Assembly: GCA_031272545.1 (NCBI GenBank)
Contig: JAISTP010000054.1
Coordinates: 1 to 57,528 of the forward strand
Source of the DNA: Bacilli bacterium
GTDB taxonomy: Bacteria; Bacillota_I; Bacilli_A; JAJDGJ01
Direction: 5' to 3'
Length of the DNA stretch: 57,528 nt
Below the pieces are notes generated by a model that was given only the letters and a program-made list of their open reading frames with translations, did not search any database and had not been told where the DNA came from. A program made the position numbers and the translations under genes. Every line of letters starts with the position of its first letter. Position 1 is the stretch's first letter. Shown here one piece after another: positions 19,998-45,292 of the stretch.

Positions 19998-21473
19998 TTA
20001 CTTAACTTTATATAAATAATCTAATAATGTACCATCACGATATTCAAGAATTCCAACTTTTTCATCACTTAATTTAATAGGTTGAGGTTTGTTTGTTAGA
20101 GAAATAGCAATTTCATATAATTCTTCAATCGTTCTAATTTTTAAATTAGTTTCTTTCTTTAATTTTTCAATTAATTCTTTATGTTTAGGATTAATTGCGA
20201 CACCATATTCAGTTACTAAAACATCAATACTTTCACCAGGAGTAGTTATAGTAGTTACTTTATCTTTAACAACACTTAATCTAGAAGAAACTAATTTAGA
20301 AACAATGATAGCTAATTTAGCACCAGCAGCAGTATCACTATGACCACCTGAACCACCCATAATAACACCATTTGAAGCAGTAGTTACATTAACATTATAA
20401 TTTAAATCAATTTCAGTTGCTCCTAAAATAACAACATCTAAATCTTTAACGATATTTGTTTTATCATAAGGATTAGCATAATGAGATGCAGACATTTTTA
20501 AATGATTTTTGTTACGAACAATAGAAGAAGTAGCTTCTAAATCAAAGCATTGCACATCTTCTAATCTTTCAAAAAGATTAGCTTCTAACATTTTAACTAA
20601 ATATCCAGTAATTCCTCCAGATGCAAAAGAACCTTTGATATTATTTGCTTGCATTATTTTCATAAGTTCATCAGCTACAGCTAAAGAAATACCACCAGCT
20701 CCTGTTTGAAAAGAAAAACCATCTTTTAATAAACCACTATGTTCAATAACTACGGCCGCATATTCGGCAATTAATAAACCAAGTGGATCTTTAGTTATTT
20801 GAGTAGTTCCTGATACAATACCTTTTGGATCACCAATTTGTTCTACTTTAATAACATAATCAACATTGTTACCATCAATTTCAATATCCGCAACTTTATT
20901 AACAATATTATCAGTAACCGCAACAACTTTATTAGCCATTAAAGCATCCGCATAAGCATATCCTAATACCCCACAAGAACTTTTACCTTCAGAACCATTA
21001 ATATTACTTTCTTGATCAACACATGGACTAGCAATGAAAGCAACATCAATATTAACTTCTTTTTCCATAATAAGACGAGCACGAGCTCCATGTGAGTGCA
21101 TATAAACACCATCTTTTAAATAACCTTGAGAAATACAATCAGCTACAGGACCAGACATATATGCTGTATAAACTTTAGTAATATTTTTATTTTTTATTAA
21201 CTCAACCATATTAGCATGAACAGGAAAAATAGAACTAGCTACAATAGTAATATCTTTTAAATTTAATTCTTTAATTAAATCAAACATAATATTGGCAACA
21301 CCATCACCATTACGTAAATGATGATGAAAACTAAAAGTCATTCCATCTTTAAAATCAATCATATTTTTAAGTTCATTTAAATTAATTAATTTCTTATTTA
21401 AATCTTTACCTTTATTATTTTTAATATCATAATCATGAAATTGATATTCTTTAATACCATCAAATTTATTCAT
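19998..21473 (-). CDS. citF: Citrate lyase-type alpha subunit (citramalate lyase CoA-transferase subunit by context)
   Basis: About 491 residues, the usual size of CitF. The subunit exchanges the acetyl group on the acyl-carrier subunit for citrate or citramalate. It has CoA-transferase features: FSFHHHLRNGDGV near the N-terminus, the glycine-rich QTGAGGISLAVADE, ASGGITGYLVKMLEA and MGGSGGHSDTAAGAK. The start is ATG 21473, overlapping citE by 8 bases (ATGAATAA), with AGGTG six bases ahead. Because the operon also encodes glutamate mutase and methylaspartase, the substrate is probably citramalate rather than citrate (inference). No citC, citX or citG is in the window. Confidence 0.92.
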   Translation of the reverse strand: MNKFDGIKEYQFHDYDIKNNKGKDLNKKLINLNELKNMIDFKDGMTFSFHHHLRNGDGVANIMFDLIKELNLKDITIVASSIFPVHANMVELIKNKNITKVYTAYMSGPVADCISQGYLKDGVYMHSHGARARLIMEKEVNIDVAFIASPCVDQESNINGSEGKSSCGVLGYAYADALMANKVVAVTDNIVNKVADIEIDGNNVDYVIKVEQIGDPKGIVSGTTQITKDPLGLLIAEYAAVVIEHSGLLKDGFSFQTGAGGISLAVADELMKIMQANNIKGSFASGGITGYLVKMLEANLFERLEDVQCFDLEATSSIVRNKNHLKMSASHYANPYDKTNIVKDLDVVILGATEIDLNYNVNVTTASNGVIMGGSGGHSDTAAGAKLAIIVSKLVSSRLSVVKDKVTTITTPGESIDVLVTEYGVAINPKHKELIEKLKKETNLKIRTIEELYEIAISLTNKPQPIKLSDEKVGILEYRDGTLLDYLYKVK

Positions 21474-22320
21474 TGATAACACCTGCTTTCTTAGCATTTT
21501 CTAAAACTAAATGAGAACGATTAATAATAGGTGCATCAACCATTTTACCATTTAAACTAAATACGCCAATACCATCTTCTTTAGCTTTATTAGCTGCATA
21601 GACAACTTCACGAGCATAATCAATCTCTTTTTGAGTTGGAGTAAAAATAGCATTAACATAACGAACTTGACGCGGATTAATACATGCCTTACCAGTAAAA
21701 CCATAAGCTTTAGCTTTTTTTGTATCAATATTTAACATTTCAAAATCTTCAACATCAGTAAAAGGCGTATCTAAACTAAATTTATTCAAAGCTTTACAAG
21801 TTAAAGCAATACTTTGACGTGCCATTAATATTTCATCACTTTGTTTAGTTCTTTCAATTTGCATATCTAAAGAATAATCTTCAGCACCAAATAACATTCC
21901 TGAAACTAAATCACTAGCACTTAAAATATCTTTTAAATTTAAAACACCACTAGCACTTTCAATTAAAGTAATAATTTTAATATTAGTATCTTTAATTTCA
22001 TTTTCTAAAGCTATAACACTTTCAACATCAGCTTTAGCAAGCATAATAAAATCGATATCAAATTCTTTGACCATATTAATATCATCATAAAAATATGGTG
22101 AATCTAAAGGATTAATACGGACAATACGAACAACACTATCTTTTTTAAAAAACTTAAAAGCTTCATTTAATAATTCACGAGCACTATCTTTTTGACTTAA
22201 ACTAATAGCATCTTCTAAATCAAATATAATAGCATCACTACCTAGAAGATGAGCTGTTTGAACCATTCCAGGATTATTAGCAGGAATAAATAAAGCACTT
22301 CTTATAAAAGGCATTTCCAT
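21466..22320 (-). CDS. citE: Citrate lyase-type beta subunit (citramalyl lyase by context)
   Basis: A 284-residue HpcH/HpaI-type aldolase-lyase that cleaves the acyl thioester to oxaloacetate or, for citramalate, pyruvate plus acetyl-carrier. Motifs are RSALFIPANNPGM at the N-terminus, DAIIFDLEDAIS (about residue 30), FIMLAKAD, TLIESASGVLN (about 117), MLFGAEDYSLDM and KACINPRQV (about 218). The first base of its start codon is the last base of the citD stop codon (TAATG), which fits the fixed subunit ratio of the complex. The pathway context favours citramalate over citrate. Confidence 0.93.
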   Translation of the reverse strand: MEMPFIRSALFIPANNPGMVQTAHLLGSDAIIFDLEDAISLSQKDSARELLNEAFKFFKKDSVVRIVRINPLDSPYFYDDINMVKEFDIDFIMLAKADVESVIALENEIKDTNIKIITLIESASGVLNLKDILSASDLVSGMLFGAEDYSLDMQIERTKQSDEILMARQSIALTCKALNKFSLDTPFTDVEDFEMLNIDTKKAKAYGFTGKACINPRQVRYVNAIFTPTQKEIDYAREVVYAANKAKEDGIGVFSLNGKMVDAPIINRSHLVLENAKKAGVINE

Positions 22321-22577
22321 TACTTTAACCCCCTTTTTAAAGCCGTTCTTACGCGAGCTGCAATCGCATAATCTAAAGCACCTTGATCTTTTAAATTAAT
22401 TGTAATATTTTCAATATTAAATTCATCTAAAACATTATTAACTACTTTTAAGATGTCTTCTTCAAACATATCTTTAACTGGACTTTCTAAATTAATGATA
22501 CGACCACTATCATTATTAGATATTTCTACTAAAACATCATTAGATTCTAAAGTTCCAGCTACACTATCTTTAATCAT
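22320..22577 (-). CDS. citD: Citrate lyase-type acyl carrier protein (gamma subunit)
   Basis: An 85-residue carrier that holds the phosphoribosyl-dephospho-CoA arm. The attachment segment VAGTLESNDV near the N-terminus contains the Ser (residue 12) that corresponds to the modified Ser of known CitD proteins. The rest resembles CitD (INLESPVKDMF ... INLKDQGALDYAIAARVRTAL). Its stop codon overlaps the citE start by one base. The genes for making and attaching the prosthetic group are not in this window and must be elsewhere. Confidence 0.93.
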   Translation of the reverse strand: MIKDSVAGTLESNDVLVEISNNDSGRIINLESPVKDMFEEDILKVVNNVLDEFNIENITINLKDQGALDYAIAARVRTALKRGLK

Positions 22578-22579
22578 GA

Positions 22580-23137
22580 TTATTCTTTCTCCTTTAAATA
22601 TTCTTGTGGACCTTGAATATATAAATCATTACCATGAATATCATTAACAACAATTATAGGAAGATTTTCTACTTCAAGTCTTCTTACCGCTTCTGATTGT
22701 AAATCTTCATAAGCAATAATTTCAGCTTTTTTTACACAATTACCTATTAAAGCAGCGGCACCACCAACTGCCGCAAAATAAACAGCTCTACCTTTTAAAG
22801 CTTCTTTTACCGTATCACTTCTTTTACCTTTACCAATCATCCCAATTAAACCTTCTTCAATAAGACGAGGAGTATAAGCATCCATACGATATGAAGTAGT
22901 AGGCCCACCACTACCAAAAGCAAAACCAGGTTTAGTTGGAGTTGGTCCAACATAATAAATAACTTGATTCTTAACATCAAAAGGCATTTTTTCACCTTTA
23001 TCTAAAGCTTCAATAAATCTTTTATGAGCAGCATCCCTAGCTGTATAAATAACACCAGATAATAAAACTTGATCACCACTTTTTAAATCCTTAATTTTAT
23101 CAAAAGTAAGAGGTGTTTCTAATTTAATCGTACTCAT
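22580..23137 (-). CDS. Class I fumarase-type hydratase, beta subunit (mesaconase by context)
   Basis: 185 residues, homologous to the C-terminal part of class I fumarases and to the beta subunit of tartrate dehydratase. Typical blocks are LKSGDQVLLSGVIYTARDAAHKR cut short here as LLSGVIYTARDAAH, YYVGPTPTKPG, GSGGPTTSYRMD, GKGKRSD and FAAVGGAAALIG. Together with the alpha subunit it forms an oxygen-sensitive [4Fe-4S] hydro-lyase. In this operon the expected reaction is hydration of mesaconate to (S)-citramalate, linking methylaspartase to the lyase. Fumarase or tartrate dehydratase activity cannot be excluded from sequence. It follows the alpha gene without a gap. Confidence 0.9.
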   Translation of the reverse strand: MSTIKLETPLTFDKIKDLKSGDQVLLSGVIYTARDAAHKRFIEALDKGEKMPFDVKNQVIYYVGPTPTKPGFAFGSGGPTTSYRMDAYTPRLIEEGLIGMIGKGKRSDTVKEALKGRAVYFAAVGGAAALIGNCVKKAEIIAYEDLQSEAVRRLEVENLPIIVVNDIHGNDLYIQGPQEYLKEKE

Positions 23138-23980
23138 TTATAACACCACCTTTATATGACGAGCTGCATGACAATTAATGTTTACAGCTACTGGAAGTCC
23201 TGCAATGTGAGTTGCAAACATTTCAATATTTACTTTTAAAACAAAAGTTTTACCACCAAAACCTTGAGGACCTATACCCATTTTATTTATTTCTTCTTCT
23301 AATTCTTTTTCTAAAGCTAATAATTTTTCATTTGGATTAACATAATCAAGATTACGAATTGCAGCTTGTTTAGCTAATTTAGCAACCATTTCAAAATCTC
23401 CACCTAAACCAACACCAATAACTAAAGGAGGACAAGGATTAGGTCCAGCTTCTTTAACTACTTTTAAAATAAATTCTTTAGCACCTTCAATACCAGCTGC
23501 TGGAGGAAACATTTTTAATTGTGACATGTTTTCACTTCCAAAGCCTTTAGCAGCTAAAACTAAAGTAAGCTTATCTCCTTCAACAATATCATAATGAATA
23601 ATAGCTGGTGTATTATTCAAAGTATTAACACGATCAAGAGGATTATTTACCACACTTTTACGAAGATAACCTTCAGTATAACCTTGAGCTACTCCTTCAT
23701 TAATCGCATCAGTTAATAATCCACCTTCAATATGAACATCTTGTCCAATACTAGCAAAACACACAACCATACCTGTATCTTGACACATAGGACGTTGTTC
23801 ATTACGAGCAATATTAGCATTTTCAATAATAATATTTAACATTTCTTTAGCTAGTTTACCATCTTCTTCACTAGCTTTCTTTTCAATCATAGCTTGAACA
23901 TCATGAGGTAAATCACATGTCATTCTTATACATGCGCCTTTAACTTGTTCAACTACATCTTGATAATTAATAGTTCTCAT
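23138..23980 (-). CDS. Class I fumarase-type hydratase, alpha subunit (mesaconase by context)
   Basis: 280 residues and the iron-sulfur part of a two-subunit class I hydro-lyase. Three Cys able to bind the [4Fe-4S] cluster are seen: RPMCQDTGM (about residue 63), GPNPCPPLVIGVGLGG (about 184) and NINCHAARH (near the C-terminus). Other family blocks are FGSENMSQLKMFPPA and GPQGFGGKTF. AAGGAG precedes the ATG. It follows a terminator (24000-24026), so transcription needs read-through or an unseen promoter. Mesaconate is the expected substrate given methylaspartase upstream and the lyase downstream. Confidence 0.9.
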   Translation of the reverse strand: MRTINYQDVVEQVKGACIRMTCDLPHDVQAMIEKKASEEDGKLAKEMLNIIIENANIARNEQRPMCQDTGMVVCFASIGQDVHIEGGLLTDAINEGVAQGYTEGYLRKSVVNNPLDRVNTLNNTPAIIHYDIVEGDKLTLVLAAKGFGSENMSQLKMFPPAAGIEGAKEFILKVVKEAGPNPCPPLVIGVGLGGDFEMVAKLAKQAAIRNLDYVNPNEKLLALEKELEEEINKMGIGPQGFGGKTFVLKVNIEMFATHIAGLPVAVNINCHAARHIKVVL

Positions 23981-24743: not shown

Positions 24744-25976
24744 TTATTTTCTGTTAGCAAGAGCAACTACACGATTCATTTCATTATTAACAATCATGTA
24801 ACCTTCATCTACACCCATACCTGGTTTAGCAAGAACTTGGAATGCTTCTGTAGCCATAGCAACATTAGTTGTACAACGAGCAGAGATATCAGTTTCATTA
24901 CAAGTACCACCTACATAAGAACCAAATCCTCTTTCATTACAATATAATACCGCTTTAGCAACATTATGAACACTTCCTAAATCAGGAGTCTTAATTTGCA
25001 TAATATGTCCAGCATTAGCGTTAACAAAATCAACTACATCATCAAAAGTATTACACCATTCATCTGCTACAAGTAAAGCAGTAGAATTCTTAGCTTTTAA
25101 AGCAGCAGTTAAAGCAGCTAAACATTCAATTTGTTTGTCTTTATTACCAGCATCCATTGGACCTTCAATAACTAATTGATAAGGAGCAGCAATTTTTTCT
25201 AAAGAAATAATGTAATCAGCTTGTGCTTCAGCATCTAAATTGAAAGCATCTCCAATAGTTCCATAAACATCAATGTGAATACGAGGATTATAACCTTCTT
25301 CACCTAAAGTCTTAATTCTATTTGCTAGCCATTTAACATAATCAGCTAAAATACTACCATCTTTACCTAATTTAGTTTCAACATTATTAATTAAAGCATG
25401 TGGTAAAACATCAGCATGTTTAATAATCATTTTATCAGCATTTAAATAACGATCATCACCTGATTGAGTAAAAATAGGTCTTCTAGAAATACCTGCAGTA
25501 TTAAATTCATCTTTAATTACTTCAGCCATAGTAACTTTTTTAGCTTTTGCAGCAGCATCAAGTAACGCTTGAGAAACACCATATCTAATAGCAGTATGTA
25601 ATCTTTTTCCATCTACTTCCATAGCATCTAATTCTTCAGCATTTTTTAAGAAAGATTCAGCTTCTAAACCTTTTAACCAAGCAACTAAATTCTTTTCAAT
25701 GAAAGGAATATAATCTTTAGCAAGGAAAAGAGGATCTCTTCCACCAGCTCCTGAATATTGAACAGCAGCACAATCACCTACAGCAACTGAGCCATCTTCT
25801 AATACAAGTTGAACACTAATAGATTCACCTGGCACTCTTATAGATTTAAATCCTTCAGTAACTGGTTCTCCAATATACGCTAAACCATCAGTTGTAGCTC
25901 CCATTTTAATAGCTTTTTGATCATCAAAGTAGAAACCTGTTCTACCTTCACTACAAATAACATCAATAATTTTCAT
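24744..25976 (-). CDS. mal: Methylaspartate ammonia-lyase
   Basis: An enolase-superfamily lyase of 410 residues, near the usual length, that removes ammonia from (2S,3S)-3-methylaspartate to give mesaconate, the second step of the methylaspartate route. The catalytic Lys lies in MQIKTPDLGS (about residue 330). Metal ligands are expected in HIDVYGTIGD, VIEGPMDAG and LLVADEWCN. The C-terminal block GGTCNETDISARCTTNVAMA is typical. The gene directly follows glutamate mutase epsilon with GGAG before the ATG. Highly conserved and secure. Confidence 0.96.
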   Translation of the reverse strand: MKIIDVICSEGRTGFYFDDQKAIKMGATTDGLAYIGEPVTEGFKSIRVPGESISVQLVLEDGSVAVGDCAAVQYSGAGGRDPLFLAKDYIPFIEKNLVAWLKGLEAESFLKNAEELDAMEVDGKRLHTAIRYGVSQALLDAAAKAKKVTMAEVIKDEFNTAGISRRPIFTQSGDDRYLNADKMIIKHADVLPHALINNVETKLGKDGSILADYVKWLANRIKTLGEEGYNPRIHIDVYGTIGDAFNLDAEAQADYIISLEKIAAPYQLVIEGPMDAGNKDKQIECLAALTAALKAKNSTALLVADEWCNTFDDVVDFVNANAGHIMQIKTPDLGSVHNVAKAVLYCNERGFGSYVGGTCNETDISARCTTNVAMATEAFQVLAKPGMGVDEGYMIVNNEMNRVVALANRK

Positions 25977-25996: not shown

Positions 25997-27466
25997 TTAT
26001 TTTTTTACATAACCTTCTGGACGACCAATTAAATGACCTTGTCCAACCGCATAAATATCATCAACAGTCATTTCAAAACCAACTGGACGATTTTCTTCAT
26101 CAGCACGTTCTTGTAATTTCTTTTTGTTGATTTCTTTAATATCATCAGTAAATGGAACATTACCAAAATCTAAATATCTTACAGCTCCTTGATTATCTCT
26201 AGCAGGTAACATTTTACCAGGGTTAAAATCAGAAGGGGCAAATGGTAAATCCATTATACCTGATTTAAACGCTTCCACAACACCTACAGCTAAATCACCA
26301 TTACCAGCTTGATAAGTAGCTTCAATAATACATTTAGTTTCTTTTTCAATTAAATCCATTTCAGCTTTTAATTCTTCAGACATAACAGCTTTTTGATCTT
26401 CAAGTAAATTTAAAACCATCTTAGTAGTTTTAATAGCATTAGCATTAGCTTCTTTAGTTGGAATACCAATAGCTTCATGAGTAGTTTTAACAATTACTTT
26501 TGTAACTTGGGCTAAAGCAGCAGTAACAGAAGCATTAGCAATTACTCCATAAGCTTTTGATTCATCAGCTGGGAAACCACCCATCCATTGATGAAATACT
26601 GTAGTAACATAAACATCATTATAACCTTTATCAGCTAAATATCTTTTAGTTAAATCTTTTAAAACTAACATAGTCGCAATATCTTGAACTTGATTACCAC
26701 ATTGACCATAACCAACAGTGATGTTTTTAACACCTTGTTCAGCAGCCAATAAAGCTTCAATGATTGCAACAGCATTAGACATACTTGGTGGTACTAAAGT
26801 TCCTGTTAAAGGACCAAATGGCTCACGATTAATATGAACACCATGTTCTTCATAAATAGCAGCTAATCTATCACAATATTGCCAATCTAATAAAGATTTT
26901 TCTAAGCTAACATTTTTAGCATAAGGAATATTATAAGAAATTGCCCCACCTTCATTTGAAGTCCAACCAGCAGCATGAATGATTTCTGCTAATAATCTTG
27001 AATCAGGTGTACCATGTCTTGCTTCTAGTGGAACATTTACTGCTTCTAAAACTTGGCGACAACCTTTAACACCATGATTTACTGCAGGAAAACCATTTAA
27101 CATAGATCTACCTTCAGCAATTGATGCTCTGATGCCTTCTTCACAATTTTCATATCTATTTTGTCTAGTATATGAATCAATAGTAGATGGTAATAAATCA
27201 GCTCCACCTTCATCTTGTAAAAATTTCATTAATTCAATATGACCATCAATAGTTGCAACACCAGCTCTTGGTTGAGCTAAAGTAATACCTTTTTTATCAG
27301 CTTCAACTAACACATCAGCAAAGTTTTTTGAAGCAGGTACATTTTTAGCATAAGCAATACAAGCTTCTAAATCTTCAATTTCTTTACCTGTTGGCCAAGT
27401 AGCTAAAACTTCTTTTCTAGTTGCATAGAACTCTTCATCAGTCCATTTTTTATTCTTTAATTTCAT
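25997..27466 (-). CDS. glmE: Glutamate mutase epsilon (large, catalytic) subunit
   Basis: About 489 residues, the coenzyme-B12-dependent TIM-barrel subunit that rearranges L-glutamate to 3-methylaspartate together with GlmS. Characteristic segments are [16 protein letters not shown] near residue 70, [39 protein letters not shown] and [15 protein letters not shown]. The start is ATG 27466 with a perfect AGGAGG six bases upstream; it overlaps the end of glmL by 17 bases. A longer frame upstream lies wholly inside glmL and has no ribosome site. Confidence 0.96.
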
Positions 27467-28871
27467 TATTATCCTCCTTGATTTCAATTAAATATTTTTT
27501 CATAATTCTTAAAGCTTGATTAGGCAATTTTGTGGCTAACAAGCCCATTGCTGATAAAATATAAGTTTTATCTAACAAATAACGAGGATGCATCGGTTTT
27601 AATAAATCAGGTTGTTCATTATCAAACTTAGCAGCCTTTAAAATATCAGCAGGTTTATCATTAAACACAAGAACGCCACCAGTTCCGACTAAATAACGAA
27701 TTTGTGTTAAATCTTTTCCATATTGAGAATACATACTTCCAAAAGGTGAAAACGATGTTTCGATATAACCAGCATGGCGATTCAAAGCTAATTCAGTACA
27801 TATCTTAGCAATTGTAGCATCAAAAATTTTATCTTCTTTATTTATTGGTACTAATTTAATATCCTCATGACGAAGATTAATTTGTCTTTCAACTTCATCC
27901 TTAGAAATGTCATTAGGATAATATTTTTTAAACATACGATATCCAGCCGCTTGATAACAAGCAAGAACAGAATATCTCATTCCAAGATCTCCTTCAACAC
28001 TTCTTTTAGCAAAAGGTTCTTGCAAACCTTTCATTGTGATACCACCTTTGGTAGGATAACCATCACAAAGTGAATGAACATCAGTAGTAGCTCCACCGAT
28101 ATCTACAACAACTAAATCACCAATACCATCTTCTTCATCAGTTCCTTTAGCAAGTAATGAAGCTGCATTTAAAACAGCAGCTGGAGTTGGCATTAAAACA
28201 TCACCAACATATTTAATTGCATTATCTAATCCTTTAGCATATACAATATTCTTCATAAACACTTCTCTTATTACATCTCTAACATTATCGACATTTAAGA
28301 TATTAATACTTGGCATAACGTTTTCACAACGATAGTAATCAAAACCAACTTTATTAAAGATCTCAGCAACTTGTGGTTGTGCTGCTTTATTACAAGCAAC
28401 AATAATTGGAATAGTAATTTTAAATTTAGCTAATACTTTAGCATTATTAATAATAACTTCTTTATTACCACCATCTGTTCCACCACATAATAAAATAATT
28501 TCAGGTTTCATAGCTAACATTTCCTCAACATCAGCCTCAGCTAGTTCATAAGAGTAAGTATTAAGAATTTTTGCTCCAGCTCCTAATGAAGCACGACGTG
28601 CTGCTTCACTTGTAAGTTCAGGAACTAAACCAATGGCAATCATTTTCAAACCACCAGCAGCACTTGAACAACCAATTTTTTCAACAAATTCTATATTATT
28701 TTCTAAAATAACTGGTTCAAGTTGAGCATAAGCTTCATTAAAGCCACGCATAATATCATCTTCAATTGTAGTTATTGCTTTTGCCGTAGCAATTATTTCT
28801 TCATTTTCAATATCTACAATGGTAAGTTTAGTATTAGTGCTACCAAAATCAACTAGTAAATAGCACTTCAT
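27450..28871 (-). CDS. glmL: Glutamate mutase-associated protein GlmL (MutL, reactivating chaperone type)
   Basis: 473-residue ASKHA-fold ATPase always found between the two glutamate mutase subunit genes; it is thought to reactivate the enzyme by exchanging damaged cobalamin. The phosphate-binding segment is [15 protein letters not shown] at the N-terminus, with [11 protein letters not shown] (about residue 67), [11 protein letters not shown] (about 126), [13 protein letters not shown] (about 250) and VGTGGVLVF (about 397). It begins two bases after the glmS stop. This is not the DNA repair MutL. Confidence 0.94.
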
Positions 28872-28873
28872 TA

Positions 28874-29290
28874 TTAAATTCCTAAATCTTGTTTTAGTTC
28901 ATTAATTGAATCTTCAATTCTAGTTCCAGGTGGAAATGCTCTATCATAACCCATATCTAAGAATTTAGGTTCAACAACATTCCAATCTTGTTTACCAACA
29001 ACAATGTTACCACCAATGTAAAGAAGAATATCACCAATACCAGCTTCAACACATTTTTCTCTTAATCCACGTGCATCTAATTCTCCTTGTCCATAAAGCG
29101 ATGAAACTAAAATAGCATCTGCATTAGTTTCAATGGCAGCATTAATGAAATCTTCTTGTGTTGAAAGAACACCAATATTAACCACATTAAAACCAGCATT
29201 TGTTAAAGCATAATCGATAATCTTATTTCCTACAGCATGAACATCTGCACCAATTACACCAATAACAACCGTTTTGTTTAATTTGTCCAT
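28874..29290 (-). CDS. glmS: Glutamate mutase sigma (small, B12-binding) subunit
   Basis: 138 residues, full length. It has the cobalamin-binding signature D-x-H-x-x-G in [14 protein letters not shown] (about residues 12-25), where His is the lower cobalt ligand. [14 protein letters not shown] and IGGNIVVG complete the Rossmann-like B12 domain. GGAGG precedes the ATG at 7 bases. It is the first gene of the glm operon, with a structured leader and a palindrome-linked promoter upstream. It should not be confused with glucosamine synthase, which shares the symbol. Confidence 0.95.
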
Positions 29291-29317: not shown

Positions 29318-29434
29318 CTTAAATTATAGTCCTATTTTTAAGCAATGGATTAAGAATTATTTAAGTATTTATTTATTAAAAAATTAAATAATTCAAAAAA
29401 TGCTTTTTATATTATTTAAAAGGACTAATTTAAG
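29318..29434 (-). ncRNA. Structured 5' leader of the glm operon (candidate cis-regulatory RNA)
   Basis: On the minus strand the predicted 5' end (about 29434) begins a stem in which 29421-29434 pairs with 29318-29333 (9 bp, a 2-nt bulge, then 5 bp). Inside it, 29384-29394 pairs perfectly with 29354-29364 (11 bp). No cobalamin riboswitch core, terminator or known class is recognised. The SD sequence lies just outside the outer stem. The AT-rich setting makes chance pairing possible. Confidence 0.35.
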
Positions 29435-29440
29435 ATATTT

Positions 29441-29469
29441 TTAATAAAATAAATATAACTTTCTTTCAA
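29441..29469 (-). promoter_or_regulatory. Promoter of the glm operon
   Basis: Minus strand: -35 TTGAAA (29464-29469), 17-nt spacer, -10 TATTAA (29441-29446). A 15-bp palindrome (29472-29486) ends two bases upstream of the -35 box. The symporter promoter at 31366-31394 has the same arrangement. Confidence 0.6.
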
Positions 29470-29471
29470 TA

Positions 29472-29486
29472 TGTGCAAATTGCACA
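29472..29486 (-). promoter_or_regulatory. 15-bp palindromic operator upstream of the glm promoter
   Basis: TGTGCAA-N-TTGCACA, a perfect palindrome with one central base, centred about 10 bp upstream of the -35 box (near -45). That is a typical activator position. A near-identical copy precedes the symporter promoter at 31396-31410. The regulator is unknown. Confidence 0.65.
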
Positions 29487-29544
29487 AAAATAAAATATTA
29501 TTTATTTTTTTAATTTTTTTGTCTAAAAATAGCACTTTTTTTAT

Positions 29545-29591
29545 AAAAAAAGCTATACATAATTAATAATTTTAATTGTATAACTTTTTTT
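29545..29591 (-). terminator. Terminator of the symporter gene
   Basis: A long minus-strand hairpin (AAAAAAAG, a G-U pair, TATACA, then further AT pairs; arms 29545-29566 and 29571-29591) with a run of seven T. It lies 17 bases after the symporter stop codon and separates it from the glm promoter. Confidence 0.78.
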
Positions 29592-29607
29592 AATTTAAAT
29601 ATAATAA

Positions 29608-31209
29608 TTATTTACTAGATTTTTTTCTCCAGAAGATAACACCATCAAAATAAGGCTTTTCATCTTCTTCTAATTCACTAACATCAAACATTTCATTATC
29701 AGTTTTTGCTTTTTCACGTCTTTCAAAATCTTTTAAAGCTAATAAAGCAGGTTTAGATATGATTAAAATACCAATAATATTGATCCATACCATTATCGCA
29801 AAACCAGTATCCGCAATATTCCATGCAGCTGCATTAGTCTTTAATCCCATAAAGAAAGCTGAGCATAGGAAGATAACTTTTAAAACACTACGACAATAGA
29901 ATCTTAATTTTTCAGAATATTTCTTTAATAATAATTCTAAATTAGTTTCTGCATAGTAATAATAAGCCATTAATGTTGTAAAAGCAAAGAAGAATAAAGC
30001 AATAGCTACAAATTTACCGCCAAAACCAGTTAATAAAGTATTAAAAGCTTGTGGAGTAAACATTGAAATAGATTCAGCTGATCCATGACCAACAGTATTA
30101 GTTAATAATTCTTGAAAATTACTATTACCTTCATAACCTTTATAAACTTGGAATAAACCATCAGCATTCTTACCTTGACCAGTATTGAATGTTTGATATG
30201 TACCAGTAATTAAAATTGCTAAACCAGTAGCACTACAAACTAATAAAGTATCAAAATAAACAGAGAAAGCTTGAACTAATCCTTGTTTAGCAGGATGAGA
30301 TACTTCAGCAGCAGCAGCCGCATGTGCTCCTGTACCTTGACCAGCTTCATTTGAGAAGACTCCACGTTTAACACCCCAAATAATAGCCCAACCTAGTGAA
30401 CCACCAAGTGCCGCATTTAAACCAAATGCTCCAGAGAATATTTCACCAAAGACATGAGGTACTTTACCAATATTAAGTAAAATGATTAAAATAGCAACTA
30501 AAATATAACTTAAAGACATAACTGGAACTAAAATAGAAGCTGCTTTTGCAATACCTTTAGTTCCACCAATAATGATTAAAGCTAATAAAACAACAGTAAT
30601 TATCATTGGTACCATTGTACTAACACCAAAGTTTTCAGAAATAGCAGTTACAATAGCATTTGATTGTACAGAAGGTTTTAAAATAGCTTCAGCGAGAATA
30701 GCCGCAATCATAAAAGCAACAGAAAAGAATTTTAAACCACTCTTATCAAAATAATAAGCTGGTCCTCCACGATACTCACCATCAATTTCTTCTTTATATA
30801 ATTGTGCTAAAGTAGATTCCACAAAAGCAGTTCCTGAACCAATAAAAGCAATAAACCACATCCAGAACATTGCTCCTGGTCCACCATAAGCAATTGCTGT
30901 TGCTACACCAACAATATTACCTGTTCCAACACGTCCTGCTACAGCCATTGCAAAGGCTTGAAAAGATGATACTCCCTTTTCAGATGAACTACCACCAAGT
31001 AACAATTTTACCATTTTCTTTATTTTTCTTAGTTGTAAAAATCTTGTTCTAATTGAAAAATAAAGTCCAGCTCCAACAAGAACAATTACCATTGGTGGAG
31101 ACCATAATAATGTTTGTAAAGCCCCAAAGAAACCATCAAAACCTTCAAAATGCATTAAGCCATTCCAAGCATCAACTGTTTGGCTGATAAAAATTTCTAT
31201 AATTCCCAT
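29608..31209 (-). CDS. Sodium:amino-acid symporter, AGCS family
   Basis: About 533-residue membrane protein with roughly ten hydrophobic helices that imports alanine, glycine or glutamine-type amino acids with sodium. Family blocks are FQAFAMAVAGRVGTGNIVGVA cut here to AVAGRVGTGNIVGVATAIAY, GPGAMFWMWFIAFIG, EYRGGPAYYF and RGVFSNEAGQGTGAHAAAAA. The start is set at ATG 31209 after AAAGGG; the longer frame from TTG 31278 overlaps a terminator-like hairpin and lacks a ribosome site. The operator-promoter shared with glmS suggests that it feeds glutamate fermentation, so glutamine or glutamate uptake is plausible (inference). The C-terminus is a charged cytoplasmic tail. Confidence 0.9.
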   Translation of the reverse strand: MGIIEIFISQTVDAWNGLMHFEGFDGFFGALQTLLWSPPMVIVLVGAGLYFSIRTRFLQLRKIKKMVKLLLGGSSSEKGVSSFQAFAMAVAGRVGTGNIVGVATAIAYGGPGAMFWMWFIAFIGSGTAFVESTLAQLYKEEIDGEYRGGPAYYFDKSGLKFFSVAFMIAAILAEAILKPSVQSNAIVTAISENFGVSTMVPMIITVVLLALIIIGGTKGIAKAASILVPVMSLSYILVAILIILLNIGKVPHVFGEIFSGAFGLNAALGGSLGWAIIWGVKRGVFSNEAGQGTGAHAAAAAEVSHPAKQGLVQAFSVYFDTLLVCSATGLAILITGTYQTFNTGQGKNADGLFQVYKGYEGNSNFQELLTNTVGHGSAESISMFTPQAFNTLLTGFGGKFVAIALFFFAFTTLMAYYYYAETNLELLLKKYSEKLRFYCRSVLKVIFLCSAFFMGLKTNAAAWNIADTGFAIMVWINIIGILIISKPALLALKDFERREKAKTDNEMFDVSELEEDEKPYFDGVIFWRKKSSK

Positions 31210-31279
31210 ACTAACAACCCTTTCTAAAAAATTTTCTATGTTATTAAAATACCAATAATGACCAATATTTTGCAACAAT

Positions 31280-31344
31280 AAAAAAAGATAATATTTACTT
31301 ATTATTAAATAAATTAATTAAAAATACATAAATATTATCTTTTT
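31280..31344 (-). terminator. Terminator-like hairpin in the symporter leader (possible attenuator)
   Basis: A perfect stem of 14-16 bp (31282-31297 with 31329-31344), a 31-nt loop and a run of seven T on the minus strand. It lies downstream of the predicted symporter start site (about 31359) and 70 bases before the start codon. It could be an attenuator of the symporter, or the terminator of the upstream tRNA-gene operon. Confidence 0.6.
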
Positions 31345-31365
31345 ATTAGCTAAATATTAACAAAA

Positions 31366-31394
31366 ATAATATAAAAAAGACTAATAATTTTCAA
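31366..31394 (-). promoter_or_regulatory. Promoter of the amino-acid symporter gene
   Basis: Minus strand: -35 TTGAAA (31389-31394), 17-nt spacer, -10 TATTAT (31366-31371). The palindromic operator ends one base upstream of the -35 box, as in the glm promoter. Confidence 0.65.
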
Positions 31395-31395
31395 A

Positions 31396-31410
31396 TGTAC
31401 AAATTGCACA
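31396..31410 (-). promoter_or_regulatory. Palindromic operator upstream of the symporter promoter
   Basis: Same 15-mer as at 29472-29486 with one change (TGTACAA-N-TTGCACA on the plus strand), including a shared flanking A run. This second copy links symporter and glutamate mutase regulation. Confidence 0.65.
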
Positions 31411-31465: not shown

Positions 31466-32722
31466 TTAATAATAAATATTAAAAACATCAACATTAATGT
31501 CAAATTGTGAACAATATCTTGTTTCAATAAATTGTGCATTACAACTTAAAATAAGTTTTTTAGAATAAACATTATTAGTATCACAAGAAATCATTATTGG
31601 ATTAATCCCAGATTGTTTAGCCATATAAATCATATCTTTTAAAATACTTTTAGCATATTTTTGATTACGAAATTCTCTAGCAACACTTAAACCAATATGA
31701 CCTCCATATTCTTTTAGAAAATCATTTAAATCTAACCTTAATTGTGCCATTCCGACTAATTGTTTTTTCTTATTATAAGCTAAATATTGTATTGAACAAA
31801 CCCACTCATCTTTTACTGTGGCTTTATCCATACTGCCATAAGTATCTTTTAACCATTCTTCATAAGTATTTAATTCATCTAAATAACCAGTTCCATTTAA
31901 AGTATCATTATGCTTAATAAAATCTTCTTTATATTTCATAACAGCTTCTTTATCATTCATCGTTGGAATAATTAAGTCTACTTCAGGTAATTCTTCTTTT
32001 TGTACTATTATTTCACTAAAATAATTAAAACAATAATTAGCACAAACTAAGCCAAAGACACTTGGTACAAAAGCATTACTACTTAATAATGGTAAAGATT
32101 TTCTATGTTTAGAAGTATCACCATCATATTCTACTTTAAAAGGTTGCTCATTAGAAAATACAACTGGTATTTTAGCTTTAATACGTTCTTTTTTTACCAT
32201 TCCCCTTAATACTTTCGCAATTGGATCAGTAGTTGTTTTATCTAGAGTTGTAAGTGAAACTTTCTCACTATGAATTTTATTAGCAGCTCCCATACTACAA
32301 ACAAAAGGTATTTGATGTAATAAAGACTCTTTTATAATTAACATTTTAGCTTCAATAGTATCACAAGCATCAATAATAAAATCTACTTTTTCATTAAAAA
32401 GTAATGCTTTATTTTCATCATTAAAAAACATTTTTAAAGCTATTACTTCACAATTAGGATTAATATCTAAAATTCTATCTTTCATAACTTCAACTTTACT
32501 CTTACCTATTGTGGAATGCAAAGCAACTAATTGACGATTTAAATTAGTTATATCGACATCATCTTTATCAATAAGAACAATTTTATTAAAACCACATCGA
32601 GCTATAGCTTCAGCCGCAAAAGAACCAACTCCACCTAAACCAATAATCGCAATCGTATGATCTTGAATATCTTTTAATTGTTCTTTAAACATAATTTCTA
32701 ATCTTTGAAATTGATTATTCAT
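31466..32722 (-). CDS. TcdA-like tRNA t6A dehydratase fused to a GNAT acetyltransferase
   Basis: 418 residues in two parts. Residues 1-245 are an E1-like/ThiF-fold domain of the TcdA type (cyclises t6A37 to ct6A in tRNA): IIGLGGVGSFAAEAIARCG (about 26), DKDDVDITNLNRQ, STIGKSKVEVMKDRI, DACDTIEAK and SMGAANK. Residues about 255-418 look like a GNAT N-acetyltransferase: GGHIGLSVAREFRNQKYAKS gives the acetyl-CoA loop, followed by ISCDTNNVYSKKLI. TcdA is usually a separate protein of about 250-270 residues. It overlaps miaA, another A37-region tRNA modifier, by 8 bases (ATGAATAA). The target of the acetyltransferase half is unknown. Confidence 0.82.
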   Translation of the reverse strand: MNNQFQRLEIMFKEQLKDIQDHTIAIIGLGGVGSFAAEAIARCGFNKIVLIDKDDVDITNLNRQLVALHSTIGKSKVEVMKDRILDINPNCEVIALKMFFNDENKALLFNEKVDFIIDACDTIEAKMLIIKESLLHQIPFVCSMGAANKIHSEKVSLTTLDKTTTDPIAKVLRGMVKKERIKAKIPVVFSNEQPFKVEYDGDTSKHRKSLPLLSSNAFVPSVFGLVCANYCFNYFSEIIVQKEELPEVDLIIPTMNDKEAVMKYKEDFIKHNDTLNGTGYLDELNTYEEWLKDTYGSMDKATVKDEWVCSIQYLAYNKKKQLVGMAQLRLDLNDFLKEYGGHIGLSVAREFRNQKYAKSILKDMIYMAKQSGINPIMISCDTNNVYSKKLILSCNAQFIETRYCSQFDINVDVFNIYY

Positions 32723-36221: not shown

Positions 36222-37544
36222 CTATAAAGCTTTGCTTATAAAGTAAATAATAAAGCAGATAGCTAAGCCATACATTATTGGATTAATTTTTTCTCTTTCT
36301 TTCTTAACAACTTTCATAATAACCCAAATTAAGAAACCAACAGCTATACCAGTCGCAATGCTATAACTTAAAACCATAAACATCATAGTTAAAAAAGCAG
36401 CTGCAGTATCCGCAATATCTTCAAAATCAATATGCTTTACACTAGACATCATAATACAACCTACCGCTACTAAAGCAGGAGTAGTAACTGAAGAAGTAAT
36501 AACACTCATTAAAGGAGAAAAGAAAGTAGCTAATAAAAATAAAATAGCAACAGTACAAGCTACTAAACCTGTTCTCCCTCCTGATTCAACACCTACGGTA
36601 CTTTCCGCATATGAAGTAACTGAAGAAGTACCAACAATTGCTCCTAAAGTAGTAGCTGTCGCATCAGACATTAAGGCTTTATTTGCATCAATTAACTCAC
36701 CTTTAGGTGTTAATAAACCAGCACGAGTCGCAATACCAACTAAAGTACCAGCAGTATCAAAGAAATCAAGAAATAATACTGTAAAGATAGCCATTAAAAA
36801 TTTTGGATCTGTTAATAAAGGTAATAATGGTTGATCAAATAATTTTCCAAATACTGGACTTAAACTTGGTGGAGTATCAAATACATGTGTTGGCATTGGA
36901 CATACTCCAATAATAACACCAACAATAGCAGTAATAATCATACCAATAAAAATAGCAGCTTTAGTATTTCGTGATAATAAAATTAAAACAACAATAATAC
37001 CAAAAACAGCTAATAAAACACTTTTATCACCAAGGTTACCTAAAGTAACTAATGTAGAAGTATCGGCTTTAATAACTCCAGCACTTTTTAAACCTACTAA
37101 TGTAATAAACATTCCAATACCAGCACTAACCGCGTATTTTAAAGATTTCGGAATCGCATTAATGATTTTCTCACGAAGTCCACTAGCTGCTATGATAATA
37201 AAAATAAGTCCAGAACAAAATACCGCAAATAAACCTTGACTAAAACTATAACCTAATCCATTTGCTGCAGCTGGCAAACAAATAGTATATGCAAAGAAAG
37301 CGTTCATTCCCATACCAGGAGCTTGTGCTACAGGATAATTAGCATATAATCCCATAATTAAAGTTCCGATTGCCGCCGCAATAGCAGTAGCCACAAAAAC
37401 AGCATTTTTATCCATTCCTGCATCACTTAGTATTGTAGGATTAACAAAAAGAATGTAACACATACTTAGGAAAACAGTAACTCCAGCTATAATTTCGCGA
37501 GAGACAGTAGATTTTCTTTCACTAATCTTAAAAAATTTATCCAA
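36222..37544 (-). CDS. pbuG: Guanine/hypoxanthine permease, NCS2 AzgA/PbuG type
   Basis: 440-residue membrane symporter for purine bases. The N-terminal REIIAGVTVFLSMCYILFVN and the APGMGMNAFFAY block (about residue 75) define the AzgA/PbuG branch. DFFDTAGTLVGIATRAG (about 265) and the TSSVTSYAESTVGVESGGRT region (about 308) are its second signature. The start is TTG 37544, nine bases after GGAGG; no in-frame ATG is near. A guanine riboswitch with terminator controls the leader, which supports guanine or hypoxanthine as substrate. It is a single-gene unit. Confidence 0.93.
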   Translation of the reverse strand: MDKFFKISERKSTVSREIIAGVTVFLSMCYILFVNPTILSDAGMDKNAVFVATAIAAAIGTLIMGLYANYPVAQAPGMGMNAFFAYTICLPAAANGLGYSFSQGLFAVFCSGLIFIIIAASGLREKIINAIPKSLKYAVSAGIGMFITLVGLKSAGVIKADTSTLVTLGNLGDKSVLLAVFGIIVVLILLSRNTKAAIFIGMIITAIVGVIIGVCPMPTHVFDTPPSLSPVFGKLFDQPLLPLLTDPKFLMAIFTVLFLDFFDTAGTLVGIATRAGLLTPKGELIDANKALMSDATATTLGAIVGTSSVTSYAESTVGVESGGRTGLVACTVAILFLLATFFSPLMSVITSSVTTPALVAVGCIMMSSVKHIDFEDIADTAAAFLTMMFMVLSYSIATGIAVGFLIWVIMKVVKKEREKINPIMYGLAICFIIYFISKAL

Positions 37545-37581: not shown

Positions 37582-37611
37582 AAAAAAGCCCACATTATAA
37601 ATAAGGGCTTT
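37582..37611 (-). terminator. Expression-platform terminator of the guanine riboswitch
   Basis: Minus-strand stem AAAGCCC/GGGCTTT (37605-37611 with 37585-37591) and a T run. Its 5' arm CCCTTAT (37601-37607) is complementary to ATAAGGG in the 3' strand of aptamer stem P1 (37625-37631), so the two structures compete. Confidence 0.85.
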
Positions 37612-37622
37612 AAAAATAAAAA

Positions 37623-37695
37623 TACCCTTATAGTCTCACATTTACGGTGTAAGGTAGAAACTTGTTAGCCATATCCTAACCTTTATATAATGGTA
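37623..37695 (-). promoter_or_regulatory. Guanine-sensing purine riboswitch
   Basis: Minus-strand purine aptamer. P1 pairs 37686-37695 with 37623-37632 (one mismatch). P2 is GTTAG/CTAAC with the GATATGG loop, J2/3 is AAGTTTCTACC, and P3 has the CCGTAAA loop between TTACA and TGTGA-like arms. The specificity base before P1 is C (GACTAT), the guanine form; adenine switches have T. With guanine bound, P1 forms and frees the terminator, so the permease gene is switched off. Confidence 0.95.
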
Positions 37696-37700
37696 TAAGT

Positions 37701-37709
37701 ATTATAACA
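37701..37709 (-). promoter_or_regulatory. Extended -10 promoter of the riboswitch-permease unit
   Basis: Minus strand TGT-TATAAT (37701-37709), directly upstream of the aptamer. No good -35 box is seen at the right distance, which fits an extended -10 promoter. Confidence 0.6.
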
Positions 37710-37769
37710 CATTTTTAGACAAAAAATAGACAAATTTTTAATAATATAGCACTTATTAATTAAATAAAT

Positions 37770-38376: not shown

Positions 38377-39309
38377 TTATTCAAAAAGACTAATTCCTAA
38401 TTCAGTAGTCAGTTTTTCTAAAAAAGCAATACCTAAATAAGAATTACCTTTACTATCTAATGAAGGGCCAAAAACACCAATGCCCATACCATCATTATCT
38501 AAAGAAACAGACATAATACCACCACCAACACCAGATTTTGAAGGTAAGCCAACACGTAAAGCAAACTCACCAGAACCATCATACATTCCACATAAACACA
38601 TAATAGCACGTAATTCTTTAGCAACAATACTAGAAAAAATACTAAAACCATTTAAATTCATACCATTATGAGCAATACTTAAAGCAATTTTCGCAAGATC
38701 TTCACATGTTACTTCAATAGAACATATTTTAAAATAAGCATCTAAAATAACTTCAATATCACCTTCTAAAACACCAGTACTATTCATATAATAAGCTAAT
38801 GATTTATTTCTTGAACCAGTACTAGCTTCTGATTGATAAACATTTTTATCATAGGTAATATCATCATTACCAGTAATATTTTTTATTAAAGAAATAATAC
38901 GCTGTACTTTTTCTTCGGAAGTATCCCCTTTAATAAAAGAAGTACAAACAATTGCTCCGGCATTAATAAAAGGATTCAAAGGTTTATTATCTTCTTTTAA
39001 TTCAAGATTAGCAATACTATTAAAAGATGAAGAAGTTGGTTCAATATTAACTTTCTTAAAAACCTTTTCATGACCACTATCTAATATCGCTTGAATTAAA
39101 ATACATACTTTAGAAACACTTTGCATAGAAAACTTCTTTTGATAATCACCGATACCATAAATAGTACCATTACTTGTAATTAAAGCTGCTCCAAATAAAT
39201 TAGGATCTACTTTCGCAAGTTCAGGAATATAAGAAGCAACTTCACCTTTTTGTTTAAGTTCTAAACATTCATAATAAACTTTATCAATTGTATTTTGAAT
39301 ATTTTTCAT
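38377..39309 (-). CDS. glsA: Glutaminase
   Basis: About 310 residues, beta-lactamase-fold enzyme converting glutamine to glutamate and ammonia. The catalytic Ser-x-x-Lys is in KFSMQSVSKVC (about residue 55). NPFINAGAI (about 108), the Tyr of LAYYMNSTG (about 185) and GLPSKSGVGGGIM (about 255) complete the site. The start is ATG 39309 with GAGG eight bases upstream; longer frames lack a ribosome site. It supplies glutamate and fits the methylaspartate fermentation encoded at 20-31 kb. Confidence 0.95.
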   Translation of the reverse strand: MKNIQNTIDKVYYECLELKQKGEVASYIPELAKVDPNLFGAALITSNGTIYGIGDYQKKFSMQSVSKVCILIQAILDSGHEKVFKKVNIEPTSSSFNSIANLELKEDNKPLNPFINAGAIVCTSFIKGDTSEEKVQRIISLIKNITGNDDITYDKNVYQSEASTGSRNKSLAYYMNSTGVLEGDIEVILDAYFKICSIEVTCEDLAKIALSIAHNGMNLNGFSIFSSIVAKELRAIMCLCGMYDGSGEFALRVGLPSKSGVGGGIMSVSLDNDGMGIGVFGPSLDSKGNSYLGIAFLEKLTTELGISLFE

Positions 39310-39379
39310 ATAATCATCCTCTTTCATAAAATAACATTCATAGTATAACAAATTAATAGTTAGAATACATTTATATCCA

Positions 39380-42323: not shown

Positions 42324-45056
42324 TTAACCATTAAGAACATCATCACAACGTTGACATACTTCGCCAACCATTTCCTCTTCTTCAAAAATATTCCAACAAC
42401 GAGGACACATATGACCCTCAAATTTTTCAACCTTAATAAATGCTGAATCATATTCATTTGCAACTAAATCGTCGCTAATAACTACTTTTGAAACAATAAA
42501 TAATTGATTTAAAGGTTTAATATCATTCATAAAAGCATATTCATCTTTAAATCTTATTGTTAATCTAGCATCTAAAGATTTCCCAATTACTTTTTCATCA
42601 CGAGCTACTTCTAAAGCTTTTAAAATATCATTACGACAAAGCATAAATTTGTCATAAGTAACTTCAATTTCATCGGCATTATCAATATCTAAATAAGGAG
42701 GTAAAAGTTCTAAATGAACTGACTTTTTCTTATTAGTTTTTGGTAAATATTTATATACTTCTTCAGAAGTATGAGGAATAAATGGTGCTAAAAGCATATT
42801 AATTGTTTCTAAGCAATGATAAAGAACAGTTTGAACTTGCATTCTTCTTTTATCTTTTTCTTTTAAAATATAAAGAATATCTTTAGAAAATTCCATATAG
42901 AAAGCACTTAATTCTTTAACAATAAAATTATTAACACTATTATAAACATTACTATATTCATAAGCATTATAATAATCAACACATGCATGATGAAGTTTAT
43001 CTAATTTAATTAAAATATATTTATCTACATCAGCTAAATCATTAACATCAATTAATTCAGCTTCACTAAAATTATATAAGTTACCTAATAAGAAACGATA
43101 AGTATTTCTAACCTTACGATAAGTATCTGATACTTGTTTTAAAACTTCATCTGAAATACGAACATCTGCTTGATAATCAGTACTAGCGACCCAAAATCTA
43201 AAAACATCAGCTCCATATTGATTAATAATTTTAATTGGTTCCATTGTATTACCTAATGATTTAGACATTTTATTACCATGTCCATCTAAAGTAAAACCAT
43301 GAGATAAAACTTCACGATAAGGAGAACGCCCATAAAAACAAGTACCAACAATTAAAGAAGAATTAAACCAACCACGGTATTGATCAGAACCTTCTAAATA
43401 CATATCAACAGGATATTCCATTCCTCTTGCTTTAATACATCCAGTATGTGATGAGCCAGAATCAAACCAAACATCCATGATGTCACTTTCTTTACGATAA
43501 TTTTTATAATTAGGATGTTTTTCTTTGAAACTATCTGGTAATAAATCTTCTACTTCACTATCAAACCAATAATTAGAACCATATTGTCCAATTTTATCAG
43601 CTACAAAAGCAAAGATATCTTCTTCAATAAATGGAACATCATTTTCATCATAAATAATTGGAATAGGCACGCCCCAAGCACGTTGACGAGAAATACACCA
43701 ATCTCCACGATCACTAATCATATTATGCATTCTTAATTTACCCCAAGAAGGAGTCCATTTAACATTATTGATTTCATTAAGTAGTTCTTCACGACGCTTA
43801 TCAATACTACAAAACCATTGTAAAGCTGCCATAAAGATAATAGGCTTTTTAGTACGCCAATCATATGGATAACTATGTTCAATATCAACAGCTCCAACTA
43901 ATGTACCTTTTTGATTCATTTTTTCAATAATAACTTTATTAGCTTTTTCCCAATATAAACCTTCTAAATCTGGACCAGCTTCCGCAGACATTAATCCTTG
44001 TTTATCACATGAAAGAATAACTGGTAAATCAAAAGTACCTTCATATTCTTTAGCGACTAAGAAGTCTTCTGTTCCATGAGCAGGAGCAGTTGTAACACAA
44101 CCTGTTCCATCATCAGTAGTAACATGATCTCCTAAAATAACAGGACAAACACGATCATTTAATGGATTAGTAGCTTTAACACCAAGTAAATCACTAGCAT
44201 TATATTCTTTAACTAGTTCTAATTTTAAATTAAGTTTTTCTTCAACACTTTCAGCTAAATCTACTGCAAAAAATAATTTACCTTTTTCACTATTATAAAC
44301 ACCATATTTAAAAGTTTCACCAATAGAAATACCAACAGTAGAAACTAAAGTCCATGGCATTGTTGTCCAACACATAATATTAACATCTTCATCAAGAATA
44401 CCTTTACCATCAACAACTTTGAACTTAACATAAACTGAAGTATCAACCTTATTATGATATTCTAATTCACCTTCAGCTAAAGCAGTTTCTGAAGTTGGAG
44501 ACCAATATACAGGTTTAAATCCTTGATAAATTAAGCCATCTGTAGCCATTTTACCAAAGATTTTAATTTGTTCAGCTTCATAAGCTTTAGTCATTGTAAT
44601 ATAAGGATTTTTATAATCTCCAAAAGAGCCTAATCTTTTAAAACCTTTCATTTGAATTGCAATTTGTTTATAAGCATATTCTTCGCAAAGTTTTCTAAAT
44701 TCAGCAATACTCATTTTCTTACGGTCAACACCAGTTTTAGTAATAGCTGTTTCAATAGGTAATCCATGAGTATCCCAACCAGGAATATAAGGCGTTTGAT
44801 ATCCTTGAATAGATTTTGAACGATTAACAATATCTTTTAAAACTTTATTTAAACCATGACCAATATGGATATCACCATTAGCATAAGGTGGACCATCATG
44901 TAAAACAAATGTTTTATTTCCTTCTCTTTCTTTTAATAATTCATCATAAAAATCCATATCATCCCACATTTTTTGGATAACTGGTTCTTTTTGTGGAAGT
45001 TTTCCACGCATTTCAAAATCTGTTTTTGGCATTAATAGCGTATTTTTGTAATCCAT
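42324..45056 (-). CDS. ileS: Isoleucyl-tRNA synthetase
   Basis: 910 residues, charges tRNA-Ile. The HIGH motif is in PYANGDIHIGHGLN (about residue 57) and KMSKS in GHGNKMSKSLGNT (about 595). The editing domain has GWDTHGLPIE and the TTDDGTGCVTTAPAHGTED segment. The C-terminal zinc finger is CPRCW...CQRCDD, the bacterial type 1 form. GGAGG precedes the ATG. Expression is under the Ile T-box leader at 45074-45285. In many Firmicutes ileS follows divIVA after the ylm genes; here it follows ylmH directly. Confidence 0.98.
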   Translation of the reverse strand: MDYKNTLLMPKTDFEMRGKLPQKEPVIQKMWDDMDFYDELLKEREGNKTFVLHDGPPYANGDIHIGHGLNKVLKDIVNRSKSIQGYQTPYIPGWDTHGLPIETAITKTGVDRKKMSIAEFRKLCEEYAYKQIAIQMKGFKRLGSFGDYKNPYITMTKAYEAEQIKIFGKMATDGLIYQGFKPVYWSPTSETALAEGELEYHNKVDTSVYVKFKVVDGKGILDEDVNIMCWTTMPWTLVSTVGISIGETFKYGVYNSEKGKLFFAVDLAESVEEKLNLKLELVKEYNASDLLGVKATNPLNDRVCPVILGDHVTTDDGTGCVTTAPAHGTEDFLVAKEYEGTFDLPVILSCDKQGLMSAEAGPDLEGLYWEKANKVIIEKMNQKGTLVGAVDIEHSYPYDWRTKKPIIFMAALQWFCSIDKRREELLNEINNVKWTPSWGKLRMHNMISDRGDWCISRQRAWGVPIPIIYDENDVPFIEEDIFAFVADKIGQYGSNYWFDSEVEDLLPDSFKEKHPNYKNYRKESDIMDVWFDSGSSHTGCIKARGMEYPVDMYLEGSDQYRGWFNSSLIVGTCFYGRSPYREVLSHGFTLDGHGNKMSKSLGNTMEPIKIINQYGADVFRFWVASTDYQADVRISDEVLKQVSDTYRKVRNTYRFLLGNLYNFSEAELIDVNDLADVDKYILIKLDKLHHACVDYYNAYEYSNVYNSVNNFIVKELSAFYMEFSKDILYILKEKDKRRMQVQTVLYHCLETINMLLAPFIPHTSEEVYKYLPKTNKKKSVHLELLPPYLDIDNADEIEVTYDKFMLCRNDILKALEVARDEKVIGKSLDARLTIRFKDEYAFMNDIKPLNQLFIVSKVVISDDLVANEYDSAFIKVEKFEGHMCPRCWNIFEEEEMVGEVCQRCDDVLNG

Positions 45057-45073: not shown

Positions 45074-45097
45074 ATAAAAAAAGTTCCTTAAAGGAAC
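45074..45097 (-). terminator. T-box terminator ahead of ileS
   Basis: Minus-strand stem GTTCCT/AGGAAC (45083-45088 with 45092-45097) and seven T. Its 5' arm overlaps the alternative antiterminator formed with the T-box sequence. Confidence 0.85.
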
Positions 45098-45285: not shown

Positions 45286-45292
45286 GATAAAT

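Follow-up and report, generated by a model that had tools for sequence, protein, structure and literature searches.

Genes and palindromes at the glutamate mutase locus

The window, meaning the whole stretch of DNA analysed here, is a contig of 57,528 nucleotides from a Bacilli bacterium (GenBank assembly GCA_031272545.1, contig JAISTP010000054.1; genome G000 below). Its minus strand carries a glutamate mutase operon that begins with glmS, preceded by the symporter gene agcS (Table 1). A perfect 15-mer palindrome, TGTGCAA-N-TTGCACA, lies 5' of glmS, and a copy with one mismatch lies 5' of agcS. Both had been reported in an earlier sequence-only reading of the window, and both were confirmed when their coordinates were checked. 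As glmS and agcS are encoded on the minus strand, the two sites read TGTGCAATTTGCACA (29486-29472) and TGTGCAATTTGTACA (31410-31396), and in this orientation the motif is TGTGCA-N3-TGCACA, approximately 190-200 bp 5' of each gene.

Table 1. Coordinates of the genes, palindromes and promoter-like elements in the window.
Feature	Position	Strand	Remarks
Fumarase-type and citrate-lyase-type pathway genes, after methylaspartate ammonia-lyase	19998-23980		Pfam
Methylaspartate ammonia-lyase	24744..25976	-	TIGR01502
glmE, mutase subunit E	25997..27487	-	NCBIfam TIGR01503; true start probably internal
glmL, mutase accessory protein	27450..28871	-	NCBIfam NF040745
glmS, methylaspartate (glutamate) mutase subunit S	28874..29290	-	NCBIfam TIGR01501/NF002612; first gene of the operon
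TATAAT	29323..29328	-	38 bp before glmS ATG; 151 bp from palindrome centre
glmS promoter of the sequence-only reading, TTGAAA-17-TATTAA	29441..29469	-	-10 at +33 from palindrome centre
Putative operator palindrome TGTGCAATTTGCACA	29472..29486	-	196 bp 5' of glmS ATG
Refined core TTTTGTGCANTTTG of glmS site	29489-29476	-	
agcS, sodium:alanine/glycine-family amino-acid symporter	29608..31209	-	TIGR00835; PF01235
agcS promoter of the sequence-only reading, TTGAAA-17-TATTAT	31366..31394	-	-10 at +32 from palindrome centre
Putative operator palindrome TGTGCAATTTGTACA	31396..31410	-	201 bp 5' of agcS ATG (31209)

Many copies at random genomic positions would have spoken against a regulatory role, and such copies are not found. 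Throughout the genome (1,317,731 bases, 98% complete), the two copies in the window are the only matches to the 15-mer at zero or one mismatch. The two-mismatch sites whose context was checked are all intragenic, except for one 5' of the gene for the candidate regulator X, described below. No copy of the palindrome was found at the glutaminase gene near the operon (38377-39351, minus strand).

Positions 31282-31344, which separate the agcS palindrome from its gene, hold a 31-bp AT-only inverted repeat (87% complementary), followed on the minus strand by a T-run, which resembles a terminator or attenuator. The agcS leader of the related genome G001 folds no better than shuffled sequences. Elsewhere in the window, positions 31466-32722 (minus strand) encode a ThiF/TcdA-like adenylyltransferase fused to a GNAT acetyltransferase. 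G001 has a comparable long form (427 aa) and G002 a 245-aa form; in both, the gene lies immediately 5' of glmS, whereas in G000 agcS intervenes. A purine riboswitch (Rfam RF00167, 74 bits; 37611-37710, minus strand) precedes a 440-aa permease ORF (36222-37544), and a T-box leader (RF00230, 115 bits; 45089-45287, minus strand) precedes a 910-aa ORF (42324-45056). The sole helix-turn-helix gene among those scanned in the window, of ArsR type (10914-11261), was considered as a local regulator and rejected, as it is unlinked to the sites.

Conservation and further targets within the family

The window genome was compared with three other genomes of its family (G001, G002 and G003). The glmS site is kept in G001, of the same genus (TGTGCACTTTGCACA, -191), and in G002, of another genus (TGTGCAATTTGCATA, -192), which bears out the expectation that the palindrome would be conserved 5' of glmS in relatives. 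Its distance from the glmS ATG is 191-196 bp in all three species (two genera). The contig of G003 ends inside glmS. The agcS site is likewise kept in G001 (TGTGCATTTTGTATA), 204 bp 5' of the ATG, compared with 201 bp in G000. As the palindrome recurs 5' of glmS in G001 and G002 and 5' of agcS in G001, its presence is beyond chance. Alignment of the glmS upstream regions reveals two conserved blocks only: TTTTGTGCANTTTGCAYATATT, and TATAAT with the ribosome-binding region by the ATG. In G000 and G001 the second copy of agcS is without the site, as are agcS of G002 and glmS of the other families examined.

A matrix built from the known sites was scanned over about two thirds of the G000 genome, with pattern searches applied to the remainder. 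It brought out a single additional strong site between genes, TTTTGTGCACTTTGTTTA, which stands 215 bp 5' of a gene for a YjeM-type transporter. This third target in G000 encodes a glutamate/GABA-family amino-acid transporter and is followed by peptidase T; yjeM of G001 is without the site. Exact matches to the refined core TTTTGTGCANTTTG in the four family genomes number six, at glmS (three), agcS (two) and yjeM (one), with none elsewhere, and the one-mismatch copies are all intragenic except one in G003, beside the X gene. Thus, the co-regulation of uptake and fermentation genes put forward in the sequence-only reading gains a conserved element common to glmS and agcS, and a third target that is again an amino-acid transporter gene. 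On sequence comparison, co-regulation of the glutamate mutase operon and the symporter through one putative operator is well supported.

The occurrence of TGTGCTTTTTGCACA in G001 (C30; L063:3752-3766) was set aside, as it lies between two genes that converge, one for a malic enzyme and one for a GntR-type regulator; the latter adjoins a tryptophanase-like gene. In other families, cre-like sequences (AAGCGCTTACA/AACGCTTACA) are found 5' of glmS (L020, L021, L023-L025, L029). A cre is an even palindrome with a central CG, and these sequences suggest that control of glmS may be of CcpA type there instead.

A candidate regulator, X

X is a 199-aa protein (G000:C19:1899-2495) with the PucR C-terminal helix-turn-helix HTH_30 (PF13556). 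It matches HTH_30 at 52.3 bits, against a cut-off of 27, and its homologues beside msmX also score above the cut-off. X has no PucR domain (PF07905), no GGDEF_2 and no other Pfam match and is therefore, by its predicted domains, a short HTH_30 protein and not a full PucR. An AlphaFold model based on four sequences reached a pLDDT of 51, too poor for a fold search. X resembles B. subtilis yxkF, which we take to be an HTH_30 protein as well.

The X gene is the sole HTH_30 gene in the G000 genome, and 51 bp 5' of it stands AGTGCACTTTGTACA, a weaker site that is also intergenic. With TATAAT close by, this site overlaps the -35 region. In G003, the orthologue of X (53% identical) likewise carries the site in its own promoter, with TATAAT 30 bp past the centre; the X promoters of G001 and G002 are without it, leaving the site at X in two of the four family genomes. 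Only about five matrix scores in 814 kb are as high as those of the X-promoter sites, and two sites at the same gene are therefore unlikely by chance. Taken alone, the site at the X gene in two genomes is a moderate argument for X. No sites were found in the promoters of X homologues in other families. The X of the window's family shares only about 22-32% identity with X elsewhere over long alignments, and their orthology is therefore assumed.

Recurrence of the palindrome beside msmX across the class

The 17-mer TTTGTGCANTTTGYAYA was sought as an exact match in 395 genomes of the class, of which about 390 belong to other families. It occurs in 29 places, 24 of them outside the window's family, and 16 of these 24 fall in the short stretch that separates X, a short HTH_30 gene, from the gene for a UgpC/MsmX-type sugar-ABC ATPase. 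A further one of the 24, in another family, stands 41 bp 5' of the gene for a full-length PucR-GGDEF_2-HTH_30 protein (L274:1501-1542).

An independent test started from 30 msmX loci, the motif being unused in choosing them. Perfect TGTGCA-N3-TGCACA lies within 200 bp of msmX at 17 of the 30 (0 in shuffles), and a palindrome with at most two mismatches at 25 (about 0.1 in shuffles); X is upstream-adjacent to msmX in 26. In a second, more divergent msmX set, 12 of 20 loci have the palindrome at two mismatches or fewer, some apparently in tandem. At L310, L318, L322, L323, L340, L343 and L344, what seem to be two operators in tandem stand 5' of msmX with a spacing of about 33 bp, the second of them about 31 bp before TATAAT.

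At E<1e-100, MsmX is absent from all four genomes of the window's family and found in 78 of 120 class genomes. Among the ATPases of G000 the nearest shows 42% identity, and its gene has a permease gene after it, as potA does. It seems, therefore, that this family lost the target found across the class and retained X and the presumed operator, the latter now at amino-acid genes. The order of events, msmX loss relative to the appearance of the operator at amino-acid genes, is one that we infer.

Promoter geometry

Of 34 msmX loci, 30 have a TATAAT-like -10 element whose first base is 31 bp (±1) past the centre of the palindrome (0 of 300 shuffles); in the other four it starts at +62 to +64, and a second degenerate palindrome seems to stand in between. 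If transcription starts about 12 bp past the first base of the -10, the palindrome would thus be centred near -43. Judged by this centring near -42/-43, by the fixed distance to the -10 and by the poor -35 beside it, the msmX site is at a class II activator position.

In the window, the sequence-only reading had joined each palindrome to a TTGAAA box, a 17-nt spacer and TATTAA or TATTAT, and had placed both sites near -45, a common activator position. The boxes are present at offsets close to the msmX geometry of +31 (Table 1), and in G000 yjeM has TATAAT at +35 from the palindrome centre. However, the TTGAAA-17-TATTAA/TATTAT boxes are not conserved in relatives, including at G001 agcS, and with 16 promoter-like sites observed against 14.2 in shuffles they are not beyond chance. 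Over the six family targets, a -10-like sequence at about the +31 offset likewise shows no above-chance excess. The activator position is thus matched by the fixed geometry at msmX in other families, but is at chance in the window's own family. The module of that reading is partly supported overall, and its exact promoter is unproven.

The conserved element at glmS is instead the TATAAT nearer the gene, which all three orthologues keep. It is separated from the centre of the palindrome by 149, 150 and 151 bp, a constancy that no shuffle out of 300 reaches at a slack of 1, and its position relative to the ATG is one at which the G000 genome is enriched in TATAAT. A gap of 150 bp between the palindrome and this element would be odd for a sigma-70 activator. 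A sigma-54 enhancer system was considered and rejected, as RpoN (PF04552) is absent from G000 in a search with positive controls.

Proposed function of the palindrome and alternatives

It is proposed that TGTGCA-N3-TGCACA is the putative DNA operator of the small PucR-type helix-turn-helix protein X. In most families of the class, X would bind in the gap that separates its gene from msmX, with the site centre about 43 bp ahead of the transcription start. Most likely it would activate msmX, which encodes an ATPase common to sugar ABC importers. In the window's family, which is without MsmX, X and the presumed operator persist, and the latter would now serve from positions 5' of the glutamate mutase operon and of amino-acid transporter genes (agcS and, in G000, yjeM). 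There, the uptake of amino acids and the fermentation of glutamate are probably coupled through X, presumably in response to a sensed signal, for which the sequence-only reading had suggested glutamate as a possibility. We consider it probable, from the comparison of genomes, that the palindrome is the X operator and has moved from msmX to genes of glutamate uptake and fermentation.

The best-surviving alternative, although unlikely, is that X is a repressor that sits beside the promoter and blocks RNA polymerase, so that a signal derepresses msmX and the glutamate genes. The overlap with the -35 region in the G000 X promoter would fit such a role, and B. subtilis PucR has both activating and repressing roles; against this stand the apparent class II position of the msmX site with its poor -35, and the fact that PucR-type proteins are mostly activators (PMC7652997).

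Somewhat less likely again, the palindrome could be the operator of another regulator that controls msmX in most of the class, with X merely a neighbour in the msmX operon. X and msmX adjoin each other as yxkF and msmX do in their B. subtilis operon, where the named regulator is CcpA (PMC8849057). However, the motif is not a cre and X is itself a helix-turn-helix protein. Furthermore, in the window's family, from which msmX is gone, two of the four genomes still have the site at X, which is unlinked, and the full-length PucR protein gene (L274) carries it too.

Action in RNA, as a 6-bp hairpin (UGUGCA-NUU-UGYAYA) in the glmS and agcS leader transcripts, is very improbable. Across the five sites at glmS and agcS, the stem varies only by C-to-T substitutions in its 3' arm, with G-U pairs kept, but the stem is broken at the yjeM site (TGTTTA), the msmX site lies upstream of the promoter and is hence untranscribed from it, the leaders are without a common fold, and no Rfam match to the leader was found. 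A functionless sequence arising by chance or from a repeat can be practically dismissed: AT-rich intergenic DNA does yield many promoter-like boxes, but the palindrome is kept across genera at a similar distance, has zero stray exact copies and recurs class-wide between X and msmX.

Binding and activation by X are thus the preferred reading. On balance, and with less assurance, we favour the view that the regulator-operator pair outlived the loss of msmX and was re-used, with its operator unchanged, for glutamate uptake and B12-dependent glutamate fermentation. If true, control would have been rewired completely, from the catabolism of sugars to that of amino acids, on the same operator sequence, and the window's family would offer a clean natural case in which regulator and DNA site are kept and the pathway is exchanged. 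MsmX/MsmK serves many Gram-positive sugar importers, and the X-palindrome-msmX arrangement proposes both a role for the neighbouring gene and its operator. The sequence-only reading could match the palindrome to no regulator that it could name. The literature searched, which largely missed subscription papers, gave no report of the motif or of a role for yxkF or the 'leucine-rich protein' gene. X can now be offered as a concrete candidate for control of this lineage's glutamate mutase pathway, for which that literature names no regulator.

Comparison with known systems

The palindromes of CRP/FNR, Rex and Fur-type regulators have similar letters (TGTG...CACA) or a 7-1-7 symmetry, and are not matched here. 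CRP (TGTGA-N6-TCACA) and Rex (TTGTGA-N6-TCACAA) sites have even symmetry and other half-sites.

The class loci are more closely paralleled by B. subtilis, where yxkF and msmX form one operon (PMC8849057), and by S. suis, where a 'leucine-rich protein' gene lies before msmK (PMC8546688); in each, a gene directly precedes that of a shared sugar-ABC ATPase. At the class loci, this neighbour encodes a short HTH_30 protein, with the palindrome in the gap. Unlike the proposed X, yxkF has no regulatory role or operator in the literature searched. The window's family differs from yxkF-msmX in that msmX is absent and the site stands at amino-acid genes.

PutR (proline), AdeR (alanine) and GabR (GABA) are PucR-type regulators of catabolism, mostly activators, and several characterised PucR-type proteins bind inverted repeats (PMC7652997). 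X shares with them the PucR C-terminal HTH_30, an inverted-repeat operator and amino-acid-related targets (both putative for X). It differs in its length of about 200 aa without a PucR (PF07905) or GGDEF_2 match, in its putative 15-bp operator, TGTGCA-N3-TGCACA, and in its class-wide target, which would be a sugar ATPase.
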